Positions 3,212-46,900 of a stretch of DNA of 64,000 nucleotides are shown piece by piece. This DNA is from Antedon mediterranea (lineage: Eukaryota; Echinodermata; Crinoidea; Comatulida; Antedonidae), in assembly GCF_964355755.1 (NCBI RefSeq), contig NC_092680.1, positions 18,639,001 through 18,703,000 on the forward strand, given 5' to 3'. Numbering within the stretch: the stretch's first letter is position 1; the number at the start of each line of letters is the position of its first letter. The notes under the pieces are model-generated. The model saw only the letters and a program-made list of their open reading frames with translations. It searched no databases and was not told where the DNA came from. A program made the position numbers and the translations under genes.

Positions 3212-3943
3212 AACAAAAACTCGATCCTACACTCTCTTGACAACAACAAGCTGCACTGAAATTTAAAAAACAGTGTGTGCACATCACGTGGATTACAGCA
3301 CGTGATAGGAGGAGCAATAAATCAGGTGCATTTTCTGCACGTGGTATGGGGCGCCGACATGTAATGCAATACAGTGAGCATTGTGTAGACACAATTTTTA
3401 CTTTGCAGAAATTATATTATATAGTTTGAGAAGAAACTATGTTCAGAATTTTCGCATAGTTAGAAAGGATAAAATGTTCAGTCTTCGAAAAAACAGAATT
3501 CAATTTTATCTTTGAAATAGCCTACGCGTGGCCCTGTAAAAAGTTTTTTCAGAAGTAATTCAAACTAAAAATTGAACAAACAAAATAATAAAAAAAAATT
3601 GACAAAATTAGCCTTAATTAATTTATTTATTTTCTAAATAGAAGTAGTGCCTTCTATTCATAATAATAATAAACCCTTTTTATCATGGAGGTCTATTTTA
3701 TACCTCCATGCAGCATGCTTTTTCATTAGGCCTATGTCTCTCTGCGCTCTGCATGCTAGTTGCATGTGCATGACGTCACGTAAGTTCCGCGTTTTGCGTA
3801 AATGCGTTGCTCGTACCAACGAGTTGCCACACAACTCCATGCCAACAAGAACATTCTGTCTTTGCCTTTGCTAAGACAAGCACCTTCACAATTTCTCAGT
3901 GACTATTTGAAATTAAACTACGAAATTTTCTAGTAGGCCTAAT
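3212..3943. promoter_or_regulatory. Divergent promoter region between protease and stathmin genes
   Basis: The 732 bp between the two start codons must hold the 5' UTRs and promoters of both genes. A perfect CRE palindrome, TGACGTCA, lies at 3771-3778, 166 bp before the stathmin ATG. It is followed by GC-richer sequence with an imperfect inverted repeat GTTGCTCGTACCAAC near 3806, which loosely resembles an RFX X-box. No TATA box is obvious. Transcription start sites cannot be seen from sequence alone. Confidence 0.45.
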
Positions 3944-37900: not shown

Positions 37901-40900
37901 ATAGAAATAAATTAATGTTATAAATTGAAGGAGATATTCATAATTATTCCCCTTTCTGTCTGAGTGATGATATTATATACAACCAATGTAATAAAACCAT
38001 TGAAAAGGGAATGAGAAGGGATTTTGACACAAGAATTATGGTATATAGAACTAGTTTAAAAACATATACCCAAGGCATAACTGCATGAAGGCTTGGCTTC
38101 TGAATGGATTCCAGCCTGAAAAAACAGTGCATGATTTAAGCATGGACCTATAAATTAGGTGCATTATAGGTCCATGATTTAAGCATGTATCTGCTGAAAT
38201 TCTAGGTATCTGGGTTGATACCGTAAAAGAGAAAAACAGTACAAGACACAAGCAAGGAAAAAACCTAGAAATAAGGTTCATAAGAAATTGATCATTGTAT
38301 GTACTACAAGCCAGGAACTCTTCCCTGCTACAAACATAGTATAAACATTGGATGAATTATAAATAATTTAATTTTCTTTATATAGGCCTATTGATTGTTC
38401 TAAAGTAAACAAATACCCAGGTCTTAATTTAATCAACTTGTTGAATAATCTACTATATATGTTTAACAAAAGGTAGACAAATAATGAATAGCTGGTTTAA
38501 AGATAATTAGTGAAAAAGTGAATTAGTTTGTAGACAGATTAATGTGAGCATCTTATGAGTGGTGATACTAGAAAAGATGCTTCAGCTTTTGGTGAGACTT
38601 TACTTATTGTTTGAATTGTAAAGTTTGTCTTAATCCTGGATCTTCAAATACTAATGAGTTCAAAATAGAAAACAAATGCTCTGCAGTCTTTTTCTCACAT
38701 TGAATCCTTACACAATAAGCCTATTCAAATCCAATGTAACACAAACATGAAGGATTTCTTAATTCAGAAAAATTGGAAAAGATTATTTTGGACCAAAATT
38801 GGATGCAATTTCTAAGTTTTCACATTCTACAGTAAAATGTAAACCTTTTCTATATATCAACACTATAATTCCTGATAAGAACACATTTAAGGCTAGAATA
38901 AATATTTAATAAACAAAACAAATAAAATAAGAACATCTGAGTTTGTCTATCTATAAGAATAAACAAACATCTAATAACCTTTTACCATTTTATCACATAA
39001 ATTTATGGAATCTGTTAACTTCTAAAAAGAAAAATGCCCAGCCATTGATAACATTAGAATTATTATATATACTTCAAATATGGGTAATATGACCCTGAAT
39101 CTATTACCTGCCTTATTGTTGTTAATTGCACACAGTAGATTATATCTGGGATTTTCCATGGGGTTTCCTATATAGAATACCCAACCCAATCATTTTTATC
39201 AATATATCAACTATTATGGTAACTGGGTTGGATTGATTACTGATTGTACTTAAATTAGATAACCTAAAAATGGATAAAATGTGCAATTAAAGAGTTCAAA
39301 GTCTATACTTTTACAATAGAATAATATATAATTTATTTCTACATATTTAATGTTACAGTGTACTTCAATATTGATAGGTGTTCTTTTGTAATGTTTGTTA
39401 TGATTAATTATTCTTGTTTAAACATCTGTTCAGTAAGACTTTGCACGTAACCCTCTCAGGTATTTTTAAAATTCTATGCTAGTATTGTAAAATTGTATAT
39501 ACAGTATAATTCCCTATTAAGAGGACACCTTTGTGACCTAACAAAGTGTCCCTTAAAGTGCTAGTGCCACAGCCTTTAAATTAAGATATTAATGATTTTT
39601 TGGGTAGACTTAATGTCTATAAATCTTGACCGAAATTTGCATTGACCTACTTTTAACGGTATGGCCGTAATCGCCTCTTAATTAGGAACGTTAATATGCC
39701 CTCGTACTTTATAAGCGTGACGTCACAGGCAGAAGACATTCTACTTCCGCCTTTTAAAACAACACACGTGCATGCATGAGACGCTGGTTTACTACTAATA
39801 ATATATACTGTATACTGCTTTCTACTGGTACTAATTGTTATTTTCAACTATTATTATTGTCAGCTACTTTTTTATTTATCTATTATAATAAATCAATATG
39901 CCTTCTCGCTGTGTTGCTGCGAATTGTGATCATGAAAATAACTTATTGTTTCGGTGGCCAAAGGACAGTTCCATCGCCAGGCAATGGACGCGATTTGTAC
40001 GTACAAAACGCGATAAGTGGAAACCCACAGCTCGATCAGTGCTCTGTTTTAAGCATTTTTCAGACGATTCATTTACAAACATGGGTCAATTCAAAGCTGG
40101 TCTAGCTACAAAGTAAGTATTTGTTAATTAGATGAATTTACTTTTAATATTTTACCTTCAACAAAAACTGCATAAAATACGTTCGCCGTCGCTATTGTTA
40201 GGCCTGCTGGGCCCGCTGGGCCAAGCCTAGCTTCTAGGCGCGCCGGCACATAATTTGCAGTAACATTAAAACTACTGTACATACATACAGAGTACAGTTG
40301 CTCCGCCTGATATATATGTATAGTATTTACTTTATGTTGGTTTATCTTTAAATAAACTTAACATAATTAATAAGTAATAGTAACAGTTTTGCCTACACCA
40401 CACAGATAACTCAACTAGGCCTAACCTAGTTGTTATGTATTTGGCTTATTACATTAATAATAATGGGATAAGGGCTAGCCTAGCCAGGCCTAATTAGTAC
40501 TACTGAATGCTGTACAAACATGATGGAGGTTAGTCAATGCCTACACTATTATGCTCAGTAGGAGAATGTCCTGTCGGTGTAAGTGGGAACTAACAACTAT
40601 ATTATAATTATATTGCTTACGTTATTTTGCCCTTAATATTAACTAGACAACGGTTTCCTCACTACTTTTAGGCTTTTACTGAATGCCAAAACAGCGGTAC
40701 CAACAATACATGTTGTGAGGGAGACATCCGACGATGGTGGTCAGGTGGCCAAAGAGTGTACAGCACAGAGGTTAGTGTAATAGATTCAATAAATAAAAGA
40801 AAAAATGTTTAGGTTTGTCTGATATTTATTTATTAATAGTATTAATATTCATTCCAACAGGTCAGCATTTGTTAAAAGAGAAAAGGCGGGAGTGATCAGG

Positions 40901-43900
40901 GAGCTTATTACTGGAACAGAGGATGAGGAAGAGGATGAACAGGAGCTGGCAAGTGTATGCGATAAGCCTCTTATGGTGTCCAGAGGCACACAGACACGAA
41001 AGCAAAGAAAACGTGTTCGGCGACGAAAAATGAGCAAAGCTAAAGTCGTGGCACCCAAAAAAGCCAAACCAACATACAAAGAACAATCGTCTGATGAAGA
41101 TGATGAAGATTTTGATGAGTCGACAGAAGATGATAGCGATTCAGATTATCGACCGGAAGAGGATGTATCGGTTTCAGATGGTGAGGATACAGAGATGGAA
41201 GATGATGAGATGAAAGGATTTAATGGGGATGCACATAGACAGCCAAAATACATTGTTTTTCACAATCACCTACTGATGCTACTTTCTATATGCCTTTCCT
41301 GTTTTTCCAGTAAAGTTCAAGTATGTTGTCGTAACAAGGGAAGCATGCTTATTGCAAACATAAGATGCTTATGTTGCCACACTAACCGCGAGTGGAAAAG
41401 TCAGCCAGAAGCTAGAGGTACCCCAATGGGTAACATTCTACTAAGTGGGGCTATTCTTTTTTCTGGCTCAACACCCACACAATTTTTAAGAGCGCTAAAA
41501 AGTATAAATGTGAGCGCCATTAGTAAACGTACTTTTTTCCGTCACCAACAAAATTTCTTGCACAGAGTTGTAAGGAATAATTGGTTTTCTAAAAGGGATA
41601 AGCACTTTGCTGAATTACAGGGCAAGGATATTTCTATTGGCGTAGATGGACGCTGTGACAGTATGGGCCACAGTGCAAAATATGGTTCATACACATCAGT
41701 TGACTTGACCGAAAATAAGATTTTGAATGTTGAATTAGTTCAGAGTAGTGATGTTAAATCATCTTATCATATGGAACTTAAGGGTCTACAAAAAACATTG
41801 GATGTCTTTAAAGATTTCAAAGTAAATATAAGTACAATTGTTTCCGATAGACATAGACAACTACAAAAATATTTAAGGGATAATTTTCCAGACATTAAGC
41901 ATTATTTTGACTGCTGGCACATTGCAAAAAGTATTAAGAAAAAGATCCAGGCCATATCAACAAAAAAATCGTGTAACCTTTTAGGTAATTGGCAAAAATC
42001 TATTTCTAACCATTATTACTGGTGTGTAATGTCCACCCACATTGATGAAAAAGATATCATTGAAGCAAAGTGGAAGTCTGTGGTAAGACATGTACAAAAT
42101 CTTCATACTGGACATCCTGAACCATATACGGAATGTGCCCATCCGGTAATGTCTCCTTCAGACCAACGGTTAACAAAGTGGTTGACTGCTGATACTGAAG
42201 CTTGTGATGCCTTACAAAAATTTGTTGAAACCAAAATGTTGGTGAAGGACATTCGCAATTCTTCACCTCATGGGCAAACGTCATCAGTGGAAGGGTACCA
42301 TAGCCTTATTAATCATTTCGCTCCTAAAATGTTCCACTTTTCATATAGTGGAATGAAGAGTCGACTTTTCATAGCTGCTCTTCACTATAATGAGAACAGT
42401 ACCAGAGAACAAATGGTAAATAAGGCTGGAGAAAAGCAATACGTAATATCATTTCCCAAGTACAAGAAAGGGGGTTACATTGTTAAAAAACTTTTAACAG
42501 AATGTACATATAATTATGTTGATGAGTTGTTCAAGAGTCTTCTTGAGGTTGTTATGGAACCAAATCTAGATGCATTTACAGAGACCATACCACCATCATT
42601 GTGCGCAGCATTTGAAAGACCTGAAAAAAGTGCTGCAGTTGCCCAACATACAAGCCGGTTTAAAAACCAGTAATAACTTGACACCATGTTTATTAATCAT
42701 ATAAATGAATTGAACACAGCATATTATTGTAGACATAATAAAATTGTTGAAATATCCACAATGTACTGTATTTTCAGACTATTTCATTTTTTCCCCAATA
42801 ACAATGTATTGGAGATGTATATGAGTGAGAGAAGCAATAAAATCAAAATGAGTTGCAAATTGTATAAATTATTACTGTACTTTATTTAATTTCAAAAAAT
42901 TATTAAACTAATACTAAATAGTATAAGAAAATTAAAATGCTGCTATGGCTGTTTTAATTTAGGTCGGGTAATTTAAATCCTGTAAACACTGGGTCATCTC
43001 CAGGTGGTGGGAAATGTGCTCTTATGCAAGAGACAACACAAGACGGAAGCACTATACGGATATTTTTTCCGACATATCCATGTATCCATCGGGCATACTG
43101 TCTGTACGATATGTGACGGTACTTTTTGTTTTTTGGTCCGTTATAGATAACTTTCTTATCATAGTGTTGCTTATACGAAAGCCATGCTACTTCCAGCACC
43201 CAAGGGTCAAGAGCAACAGACTTGAAACCTGGATGATTTGTGATGCAGGAGAATGGAGCATCATTGTTGAACAGATTGACATTGTCTTCAAGTTTAGCAC
43301 TTGTGTTTTCGCACTCCTTGCAGCAGATGCACTCTTCCCCTGAGCCCATGATTTGGCAATGTTCACAGGAACACCTGAACAAGATGAAAACATGTATTTA
43401 GTCATTATAAAATTAATTATTATGATTATAATTAGTTGATCATATCAGCAGTCACTCAATCAAGTGAAATTCAAATGCCCATTTGAACTATGACCAGAAT
43501 ATTAATATTAATACTTTAGGCCTAGTCCATCTATTATTATAACCAAACCCAAGCCAAGCAAGGAGTAGCCTATTATTATTAAACCACCGTCCCAAATCCG
43601 ACCCATCTAATAATAATCATCAAACAAATTACGATGGGGACTTTATATTAACGTATGGCATCTCACAAAATTTGAAAAAAAAAAAACCGATTGTATATTT
43701 AGAATTTAGAAACACTGAGGTAGCTCTAGCTTCGATTGATTAATTAGGCCTAGCCCAATCAAGCAGACGCTTCACTACAACAACCACAACGGGGGAACAC
43801 CTACCATTCTAAATTATCCAGGCGTGCAGCCATCATGTCAACATCTTCACCTTGGGCTTCTTCATCAATGTCTTGTAATTCATGTTCCTCAAAACGTGGT

Positions 43901-46900
43901 TCGAAATTATATGGTATTATAAGGCCAGTACCATTTTCCTCATCACTTGATGATGAACTACTACTACTTGGTCTATCTGATGAAACACTTTCTAAATCGC
44001 TTTCGGAATCCATAACAAATATTCAGTAAGCTTGTTGTGATCGCCGCGGGGTGTGTTATAAGGCGCAAGATGCAGGTTAGTTCCTCCTCGCGATCGTCGG
44101 TGTTCTGGCTGTGACGTCACATACAAATGTCGAAAGGTAACATTTCGTGACCAAATAACGACACACATATTGCTTTTTTTTTCATATATATAACACTTTA
44201 TTATTGAAACTCAATTTAACACAGTATCTACATATATTATTCTTGATACTGATAATAGTAAATGTCGTATTTGTCGAAAGTGTGGCACTAGCACTTTAAT
44301 AGGGGTGTCTGCAAAATAAGGCTTGTCGTAGTGTATACATTGCATCTTGTTCGTTTCACAAATATGTGTCCCCTTTGTTTGTTTGTTTTATCTTTATACT
44401 GGGTAACCTCTTCAGTCAAAGACTGATCTCCCAGAGGGCCCAGTTGGTGATCAGTGGCTGTGATGTACTAATACACCGGGGTAACCCCTTACTCGTCTCA
44501 AAAGATGTACTAGGTTCTTTAAAGTGCACACGAGCAAGTTGTGTACACTGGACCTACGGTTTATAGTCCTTATCCGAGAAGACTCGTTCTACCACCAGAA
44601 CCATGGAGTGAGTGAGCCTCGGACCCCTGCCGATGTTATGGCTACGTGATTACGGTTCCACTGTCTTAACCGCTCGGCCACTCACTCCCTTAAAAGGAGC
44701 GTCCATTAGGTGTGTCTCAAAGGAGCGTTTCTACTGTGTATGAATTAACATGTTGATGGCATATTATAATTTGCAATATAATGAGCATATGATCCTTATA
44801 TTTATATCTATTTATATCCAAAAGCCTTAGATATATTTGACAACAGACTACCTACTCTACAACTATTAAATCAAGCTAACAGAATGAAACTCTTGTAATT
44901 CTACAATGTCCTCACAAATCTACCTCCATGCTAAATTGAACAGTTTGAAAGCAGAATAGTTGGAAGAAGATCAAGCAGTTAATGAATTAATTGAGCTTAA
45001 AAATTACCACACCAATGTAAATCCGGGAAGGACGAAACTAGATTTTTAATGATGAACTAAATATTATTTCTATTCTGTACATTAAGCAATTGTACACACC
45101 TTGTGGAACCTAATGTGTTAAAAGTAAAAGTGCTGTACTATGTCTGACTCAATCAACATACTCTATTTAAATTATTGTAGAAAATGGTTGGTTTTTCTGT
45201 TTATTATTTCTTTAAGCTTTGACAATATAAATGGCTGGTGGAAAGAGGGAGAAGAGATGGAGACACAAGTTTCAGAAAAGTGCAAACTAGATGTAAAACA
45301 AATATATAGCAACAAATTTGAATAATTTCTTTCAAAAAAACATCATTTCATTACTAAGAATGTTAAATATAATTTTATTTAAAAATATATATTCTCAATA
45401 TGTCCTATTTGTAGTAGTAGTAATAATACCTATTAAAATTGGTATAAGTATTGATATGCTTATGCAGTTCTTCAATGAAATGTATAGTATATACAGACGG
45501 ACATAATTGAACTGACTCACATCCTTGTGAGAGGAAGCCTATTTATCCTACACTATTCACAATATAAAGTAACACCATTAAGGTTCATACTTGTGGACCC
45601 CTTCTCAGCCCATATAGAAAAATCATTAAGATAAATATTTGTTTACAAATATTGTAATGTAAAATACATGTCGTATCAGTGACATAAACGTAAATATTAT
45701 TTCATTTGTATTAAAAAAATGTTTTTATTTTTTCTGTTTAGTGCAATAAAGGGAGTAATACTTTTAGAAGTCTTTGTCTTGAATTGAAATAAGTTGATAA
45801 ACATGTAAAAGTTAAAAGTATATCAAAGTTCATAGACGCCCCTCCCACAATTTCCATACTGTAAGCCAGGTCAGATTTATATCATTAATACATCATTCAC
45901 ATACAAAATCACTTCATAAGAGCACACTTTATTGTCTGGTGGTTACTCACCAACATGGATGTGTACAGGATGACTTTTGAATTCTCAATAAGGAAAAAAA
46001 AACATTAAAAAAAATAATATGGGAAAGTATGAACTATGAACAAGCAATATTCAGTTAAGTTAAGTAGTCGGGTATTTTATGATGGTCAGTTACAATTCTG
46101 TTTTCTACATTTTTGTTGCTCTATGTTAGACTGACAGTTCACTAATTCTTTGACAAATGTCACCAATTTTGTTTCTTAAAATTTCAGTCTACTAAAACTT
46201 GTACAATCTAATACTAAAATATCATTTAATATATTAATTAATATTAATTAATATATAACAAAGTAGAAAATGTCACAAAATCGCAAATAATAAAAAATAA
46301 AATGAACTTTAATTTGCAAATAAAACATAAGAAATCTGAGTATTTATTTCCTCTTTATAATGCTAATCACTTTGTGAATGAATCACTAATTAAGTTCATA
46401 CGTTTAAAATTGTTTATTAATAAATAAATAAAAAACGTGGCAAGCACCAAGATTCAATCAAGAGAGAATTTGCATAATTGATTGCAAGCCATGTCGAAAC
46501 ACTGTCAATTCACAAGATATAGTAATAATATATAAAAATAAAGTAACCCACATAATTGAATTATCCAAAAACAAAACCTTACATGAAAATAAACAACATG
46601 AAAGTGGAGCGCTGAGGAGGATCATGGATAGAGACACCACTATCACCGAGTAGGGTGTGATCCTCTTCCTCCAACTTCCAGAACATAACATAAAAACAAA
46701 TTACATGAAAAATGTTATTGCACATGTTTGTTTTAAAGTTAATGTTTAGACATACATTTTAATTATGTTAAACATTGTTTGAAAACAATATTGTTACTAT
46801 ATTACACCACGTCGAGGGGGTTAAATTGCTATCCGATTAAATTTGTAGGATTTAATTCTGCATAATATCAAGAAAATGATTCTGGGGTCAGGTAGGAGGT

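Follow-up and report, generated by a model that had tools for sequence, protein, structure and literature searches.

A young Kolobok transposon with a P2X7 ballast-like second gene in the crinoid Antedon mediterranea

A window of 64,000 nt from Antedon mediterranea (contig NC_092680.1, 18,639,001-18,703,000, forward strand), by which is meant the whole stretch of DNA that was analysed and to which all positions below refer, carries at 39557-44295 a transposable element of 4,739 bp with a copy of TTAA on either side. We read this element, with a probability of about 0.82, as a young Kolobok transposon of Kol0, the KolX-bearing type, with two genes, the second of which, KolX, encodes a putative transposition accessory factor acting in trans. 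Insertion at TTAA, perfect ends, a THAP/DDE transposase, a convergent KolX gene, dispersed near-identical copies and co-retention of the two genes are all observed directly. The element is a well-preserved and fresh example of a published pairing, not a new kind: KolX has been named as the second gene of the Kol0 lineage of Kolobok and identified as the ballast of the P2X7 receptor (Kojima and Bao 2022, Mob DNA 13:24, PMC9587614; this and the other papers cited by PMC number are drawn on here in excerpt). Because that identification was already published, the central inference of an earlier interpretation made from the letters of this DNA (the sequence-only reading) is already in the literature; its assignment to Kolobok, the ballast homology and the proposal that an element of this sort supplied the tail of P2X7 agree with the present results and are all in print (PMC9587614). 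The near-identical two-gene copies, with their whole frames and defined insertion context, open the role of KolX and of the P2X7 ballast to a direct transposition assay, and two checkable points are added, namely a GTGACGTCA site shared by the upstream regions of the two genes and a possible link of P2X7 to one KolX sublineage through a CCxW motif.

The element and its two genes

The features of the element, in order of position, are as follows.

39553..39556, no strand: left TTAA target-site copy (repeat search; tandem-repeat context of copy L002)
39557..39571, plus: left terminal inverted repeat AGTGCTAGTGCCACA, starting AG (5'-RR) (repeat search; ends common to nine other two-ended copies, one with one mismatch per end)
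39717..39737, plus: subterminal inverted repeat, left arm, containing GTGACGTCA (TGACGTCA at 39718-39725); 21 nt, 90%, 180 bp before the transposase ATG
39898..40112, plus: transposase exon 1, THAP DNA-binding domain (Pfam match and splice model)
40672..40770, plus: transposase exon 2 (splice model)
40861..42673, plus: transposase exon 3, acidic region and DDE core (VDG...SDRH...DCWH...VEGYH), stop 42671-42673 (splice model and profile alignment)
42954..43374, minus: KolX exon 2, ballast (P2RX7_C) domain with seven conserved cysteines, stop 42954-42956 (Pfam, PDB-chain match, alignment)
43805..44013, minus: KolX exon 1, acidic and serine-rich N-terminus with PYNFEP (splice model)
44100..44120, minus: subterminal inverted repeat, right arm, containing GTGACGTCA (TGACGTCA at 44112-44119); 21 nt, 90%, 106 bp before the KolX ATG
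44281..44295, minus: right terminal inverted repeat, terminating CT (YY-3') (repeat search)
44296..44299, no strand: right TTAA target-site copy (repeat search)

The TTAA flanks and 15-bp perfect inverted ends described in the sequence-only reading were recovered by the repeat search, the two together forming a 19-bp perfect inverted repeat, and the termini (AG...CT) have the 5'-RR...YY-3' form of Kolobok. Copy L002 lies inside a 17-bp tandem repeat of which each uninterrupted unit has one TTAA, and this supports duplication of the TTAA on insertion. The flanks of the window copy (39546-39556 and 44296-44309) read GTGTCCC-TTAA-TAGGGGTGTC and are similar to the 17-bp unit around L002; a preference of the transposon for this repeat as a target is possible. 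No direct repeat longer than 24 nt was found in the element.

From the left end inward runs the transposase gene, modelled as three exons encoding 708 aa, with splice junctions picked by eye for consensus sites from among many GT-AG combinations that keep the frame open. The spliced THAP-DDE transposase that had been proposed is borne out by Pfam for its THAP domain (PF05485, E 2.3e-9), the DDE part giving a sub-threshold MULE match alone (E 7.6e-5), and a search of solved structures with the transposase core gave no match. The catalytic residues of the window protein fall at D323, D390 and E538 with DCWH at 411 (model columns), which is the DDD/E triad of Kolobok with its C/DxxH between the second D and the E. 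Every aligned transposase with a letter at those columns retains both D residues and the E; DxxH is read in 7/11 sequences with letters there, and in the four that differ (L012, L018, L022 and L024) the reading is possibly of intron sequence at the boundary.

KolX runs inward from the right, on the minus strand and convergent to the transposase, and consists of two exons with a GT-AG intron whose junction translates as ...LEWCSCEHC. This 209-aa protein, noted previously as a convergent and spliced ballast-like product, is indeed matched by the Pfam P2RX7_C profile (E 4.3e-11), Pfam finding no further domain in it, and it matches P2X7 chains in the PDB with a best E of 6e-5. Seven cysteines (profile columns C41, C43, C46, C57, C58, C83 and C152) are found in 15 aligned KolX sequences wherever a letter is present, and in P2X7 seven conserved cysteines surround two zinc ions (PMC9587614). 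A single-sequence AlphaFold2 model of KolX exon 2 taken alone reached a pLDDT of 37.9, and the homology between KolX and the ballast, as put forward here, is drawn from sequence. Inspection by eye showed a PYxFEP-like motif in the acidic N-terminal region of KolX in the window and in L013, L014, L019, L023, L029 and L033.

Copies and related families in the genome

With the 19-bp end pattern and up to two mismatches, 26 sites were found in the genome, compared with 1 for a reversed control. Ten pairs are formed by these sites, nine of them exact and one mismatched at a single base in each end. Of the sites standing alone, four have two mismatches and two are exact; one of the two exact sites belongs to copy L011, and near the other (C5:885105) there is no KolX or transposase among the matches listed. 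Both genes, whole or in part, are present in 10/10 two-ended copies and in the one-ended L011, so that no two-ended copy lacking the small gene, which the sequence-only reading had regarded as telling against the pairing, was found. The KolX frame is whole in 8/11 copies (window, L001, L002, L004, L005, L006, L007 and L008/L009, the last being read as a single copy whose two sides are about 18 kb apart) and the transposase frame in 6/11 (window, L002, L003, L004, L005 and L008). Both are whole in five of the eleven, three of which (window, L002 and L004) are free of inserted DNA, and about 3 kb of inserted DNA lies in intron 1 of L005. A 22-bp insertion common to L001, L006 and L007 breaks the transposase; in L003 it is KolX that is broken and the transposase that is whole. 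Compared piece by piece, the copies are 98.0-99.9% identical to that in the window, L010 and L011 excepted (88-96%), which fits the earlier description of the element as very young, and the exon-2 protein is 99-100% identical in seven copies beyond the window, each between the same ends.

Copies L001, L006 and L007 lie at C4:17.42, 19.09 and 19.36 Mb, and comparison of their flanks (L038-L043) showed that the left flank of L001 matches the inverted right flank of L006 (99.7% over 2 kb) and that the right flank of L001 matches the right flank of L007 (99.95% over 2 kb). One explanation would be a duplication of the locus, with the second copy split by an inversion of about 262 kb and both breakpoints at inverted copies of this transposon; another would be an assembly artefact.

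Searches of the genome gave 92 matches to KolX exon 2 and 70 to the P2RX7_C model, which were merged by eye to 90 places after rows resembling extra exons were dropped; 99 transposase rows, from a search in which 89 of 267 candidates were scored, were likewise merged to 68. Among the matches listed, a transposase lies within 8 kb at 43/90 KolX places, the mean over 1000 rotations (for which rough lengths of contigs C6 and C11 were used) being 0.29 and the maximum 8. Nine or ten deeply diverged families with both genes were distinguished, between which identity is 24-71% for the transposase (24-42% without close pairs) and 23-60% for KolX. A profile search found a transposase or its remnant, convergent to KolX, in all 21 KolX loci examined outside the window family: ten (L012-L018, L033-L035) had been chosen as having both matches or as second copies of such loci, ten (L019-L021, L026-L032) for having no transposase nearby, and L023 as a transposase place, the transposase of L030 being a weak 29-column piece (E 4e-3). 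Among 47 apparently lone KolX places 12 were inspected, of which L009 and L010 belong to the window family and L019-L021 and L026-L032 hold transposase pieces. Groups common to the KolX and transposase trees are the window with L012 (0.99/0.59), L014 with L015, and L017 with L018; a group of L013, L016, L023 and L027 is roughly common to both (0.76/0.99).

L019 itself is a 3.1-kb internally deleted element whose end bases (AGATCATGGAACATGG) are identical to those of the 6.2-kb L033 element; L020 and L021 are piecewise 93-96% identical to it, and the KolX matches listed include 12 places, 52-54% identical, that each contain a single TAG and a single TAA. L022/L037 (C5:15231002-15246831) has three transposase copies with a 7-kb period, and in the unit read KolX was not detected and open reading frames resembling retroelement pieces were seen by eye.

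The role of KolX

In all features compared (TTAA duplication, 5'-RR/YY-3' ends, DDD/E transposase with D/CxxH, ballast-like second protein) the element resembles Kolobok of the Kol0 lineage, and no difference in kind was seen, Kolobok-1_XT being compared by description only; its second gene has both the P2X7 ballast similarity and the seven cysteines that define KolX in Kol0. KolobokP shares the Kolobok transposase and a convergent second gene, but there the second gene is a His-Me finger nuclease and the terminal direct repeats are 450 or 660 bp long (PMC9587614); in the window element no His-Me finger nuclease domain was matched by Pfam and no long terminal direct repeats were found, and it is not assigned to KolobokP. 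The TTAA target is shared with piggyBac, from which the element differs in its ends, which start AG, and in its Kolobok-type transposase, and whilst the seven cysteines are all present in the window KolX, piggyBac proteins are said to lack most of them. The P element and THAP9 likewise combine a THAP domain with an RNase-H-type transposase, but their target duplication is 8 bp long and their transposase has an inserted GTP-binding segment (PMC7776569), as opposed to TTAA and a separate KolX here.

In the mechanism that we favour, the transposase would bind the ends and move the element into TTAA; the two genes would be expressed from opposite ends through promoters sharing the GTGACGTCA site, and hence made together; and KolX, stabilised by zinc, would act in trans on the transposase or the ends as an accessory factor. 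The core of this site, TGACGTCA, we take to be a CRE/ATF-type palindrome. It occurs in 14/27 outer regions, each reaching at most 1,300 bases outward from the first coding match, where 0.19-0.28 would be expected from composition and about 0.9 from its frequency elsewhere in the window (positions 3771 and 57164, two sites in 59 kb), and the base before it, read into the gene, is G in 14/14; among these L033 and L019 are not independent, nor are the two ends of L035. The oriented GTGACGTCA lies upstream of one or both genes in 11/19 loci, which represent deeply diverged families (window, L014, L015, L018, L019, L022, L028, L029, L033, L034 and L035), and TGACGTCA is absent from the other eight (L016, L017, L024, L025, L026, L027, L030 and L032), some of whose outer regions are short or uncertain. 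In the window, L033 and L019, the three for which both ends are known and a subterminal position is established, the site is near each end, some 160-200 bp in. As a control, TGACGTCA ranked first of 96 palindromes of the same composition; the second, TAGGCCTA (12/27), was dropped as a shared site, having 7 occurrences in the 59 kb of window outside the element compared with 2 for TGACGTCA. We read the shared GTGACGTCA as a promoter or end-recognition site coupling both genes; nothing linking TGACGTCA with Kolobok was found in the open-licence literature searched.

The sequence-only reading left KolX as either cargo or a transposition cofactor. The second is favoured and the first disfavoured, KolX being convergent to the transposase in 21/21 other loci and in 10/10 two-ended copies, and most likely it is a putative transposition accessory factor and not cargo. 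By the Nei-Gojobori method (NG86), comparisons between subfamilies gave, for KolX, 3 synonymous and 0 nonsynonymous changes with the linked copies L001, L006 and L007, and 2 synonymous and 1 nonsynonymous with L009, with a ratio of nonsynonymous to synonymous rates (dN/dS) of 0-0.14, and a dN/dS of 0.27-0.43 in the transposase, all of these figures resting on few changes. They fit, without proving it, purifying selection on both in the active lineage with drift in single copies.

A number of findings weigh against the favoured reading. The comparison of L003 with L008 gave a transposase dN/dS of 1.45. The other 35/47 KolX places with no near transposase fall outside the inspected set, and of four transposases chosen as seemingly lacking KolX three (L022, L024 with L036, and L025) have none detectable, the fourth, L023, having one; since the tree places L022 with the KolX-bearing L014/L015 (0.999) and L025 very close to L012, the absences in L022 and L025 look like losses. 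The distance matrices of the two proteins across ten families correlate (Mantel r 0.75, 0/5000 permutations), but r falls to 0.33 (298/5000) without L015 and L018 and to 0.05 (2039/5000) without L012 too, so that most of the correlation comes from close pairs and the support for deep co-divergence is weak. Both genes are damaged in the multi-copy L019 type, with KolX interrupted and the transposase reduced to its last 51 residues; since this type and L003 exist, KolX is dispensable in cis.

Of the alternatives, the one that survives best is that KolX is a regulator encoded by the element (it might repress the transposase of its own element, say, or counter silencing by the host) and no part of the transposition machinery, which we regard as possible but rather unlikely. 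Such a role would suit a gene that, like KolX, starts at the other end of the element and shares the upstream GTGACGTCA site, and it would suit the whole KolX frames in three copies with a broken transposase, but these copies (L001, L006 and L007) are linked by duplication and inversion and do not represent three independent insertions. Nanor, a likely domesticated KolX (Kojima and Bao 2022, PMC9587614), has been hypothesised to act in transcription (PMC7016195), which speaks for a regulator; against a regulator, P2RX7_C is the sole domain that Pfam finds in KolX.

The idea of KolX as mere cargo, in other words a host gene acquired by the element without any role in its spread, would agree with KolX being unneeded in cis and with the L003 and L019-type copies that have no whole KolX. 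It is very improbable given a convergent position and seven cysteines that stay constant across families whose transposases are, close pairs aside, 24-42% identical, and given that each of the 12 lone KolX places inspected holds transposase pieces (L030 weakly) or belongs to the window family. The suggestion of a host gene lying between the ends by chance is refuted by the seven further copies that encode the exon-2 protein between the same ends, and by the 43/90 places near a listed transposase where 0.29 are expected.

KolX and the ballast of P2X7

P2X7 has been derived from a P2X4-like gene fused to KolX (Kojima and Bao 2022, PMC9587614). Ballast proteins across animals, and the fusion origin of P2X7, had been found earlier (Rump 2020, PMC7016195), in the available main text of which the string 'transpos' is missing at word starts. 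In this genome, matches to P2X_receptor were found at C3:4.20 Mb and C3:6.68-6.72 Mb only, with no ballast within 1.4 Mb of either region among the matches listed. Against P2X7 chains, the KolX of L027 scores up to 47.9 bits (82 residues), that of L034 27.7 and that of the window 26.3, and plain identity to P2X7 differs little between families (36/33% for L027, 34/33% for L016 and 31/30% for the window). The motif PSCCxWxIR is common to L016, L027 and P2X7, the other sequences having V, A or L after C and no W, and P2X7 groups with L016, L027 and L013 in LG, WAG and IQ-TREE trees built on about 80 columns (IQ-TREE support 45-73). Because L027 scores higher, CCxW is shared and the trees, at weak support, agree, the donor of the P2X7 tail, assuming that a KolX was the source, may well belong to a sublineage other than that of the window, and the CCxW lineage (L016/L027) may be nearer; we offer this as no more than a lead.

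The window KolX is like the P2X7 ballast, the PTHR36981 'ZCD' proteins and Nanor (PMC7016195) in its seven cysteines, its equivalents of RH (R546-H547) and R578, and its LPSC and GFK motifs; it differs from P2X7 in lacking the P2X channel part and in having an acidic N-terminus that bears PYNFEP. The ballast of P2X7 has sites for GTP/GDP and dinuclear zinc whose function is given as unknown (PMC9859053). From the alignment of KolX to PDB P2X7 chains, with P2X7 numbering from PMC7016195, three residues of the guanine-nucleotide site of the rat protein (R546, H547, R574, R578 and K583) are kept in the window KolX, namely R546, H547 and R578, and R574 and K583 are replaced by V and P. Across families, the equivalents of R546 and Y550 are each kept in 15/15 KolX sequences and that of R578 in 13/14, H547 not being retained in every family; R574 and K583 are also lost outside mammals in P2X7 itself (PMC7016195).

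In the P element, GTP bound by an insertion in the catalytic domain lets the transposase pair and position the ends (PMC7776569). An improbable but more specific proposal has KolX as a stand-alone assembly factor of the Kolobok transpososome that binds guanine nucleotides and would do in trans the job of that insertion. The GDP/zinc ballast of P2X7 would then be a domesticated transposition cofactor, derived from the CCxW sublineage (L016/L027 type) and not from that of the window. What speaks for nucleotide-dependent assembly is two arginines and a tyrosine, with two of the five rat GDP contacts missing. In viral contigs, a scan with a three-family KolX alignment gave 68 pattern matches and no relative, and a scan with a single KolX protein gave one stretch that encodes a relative.

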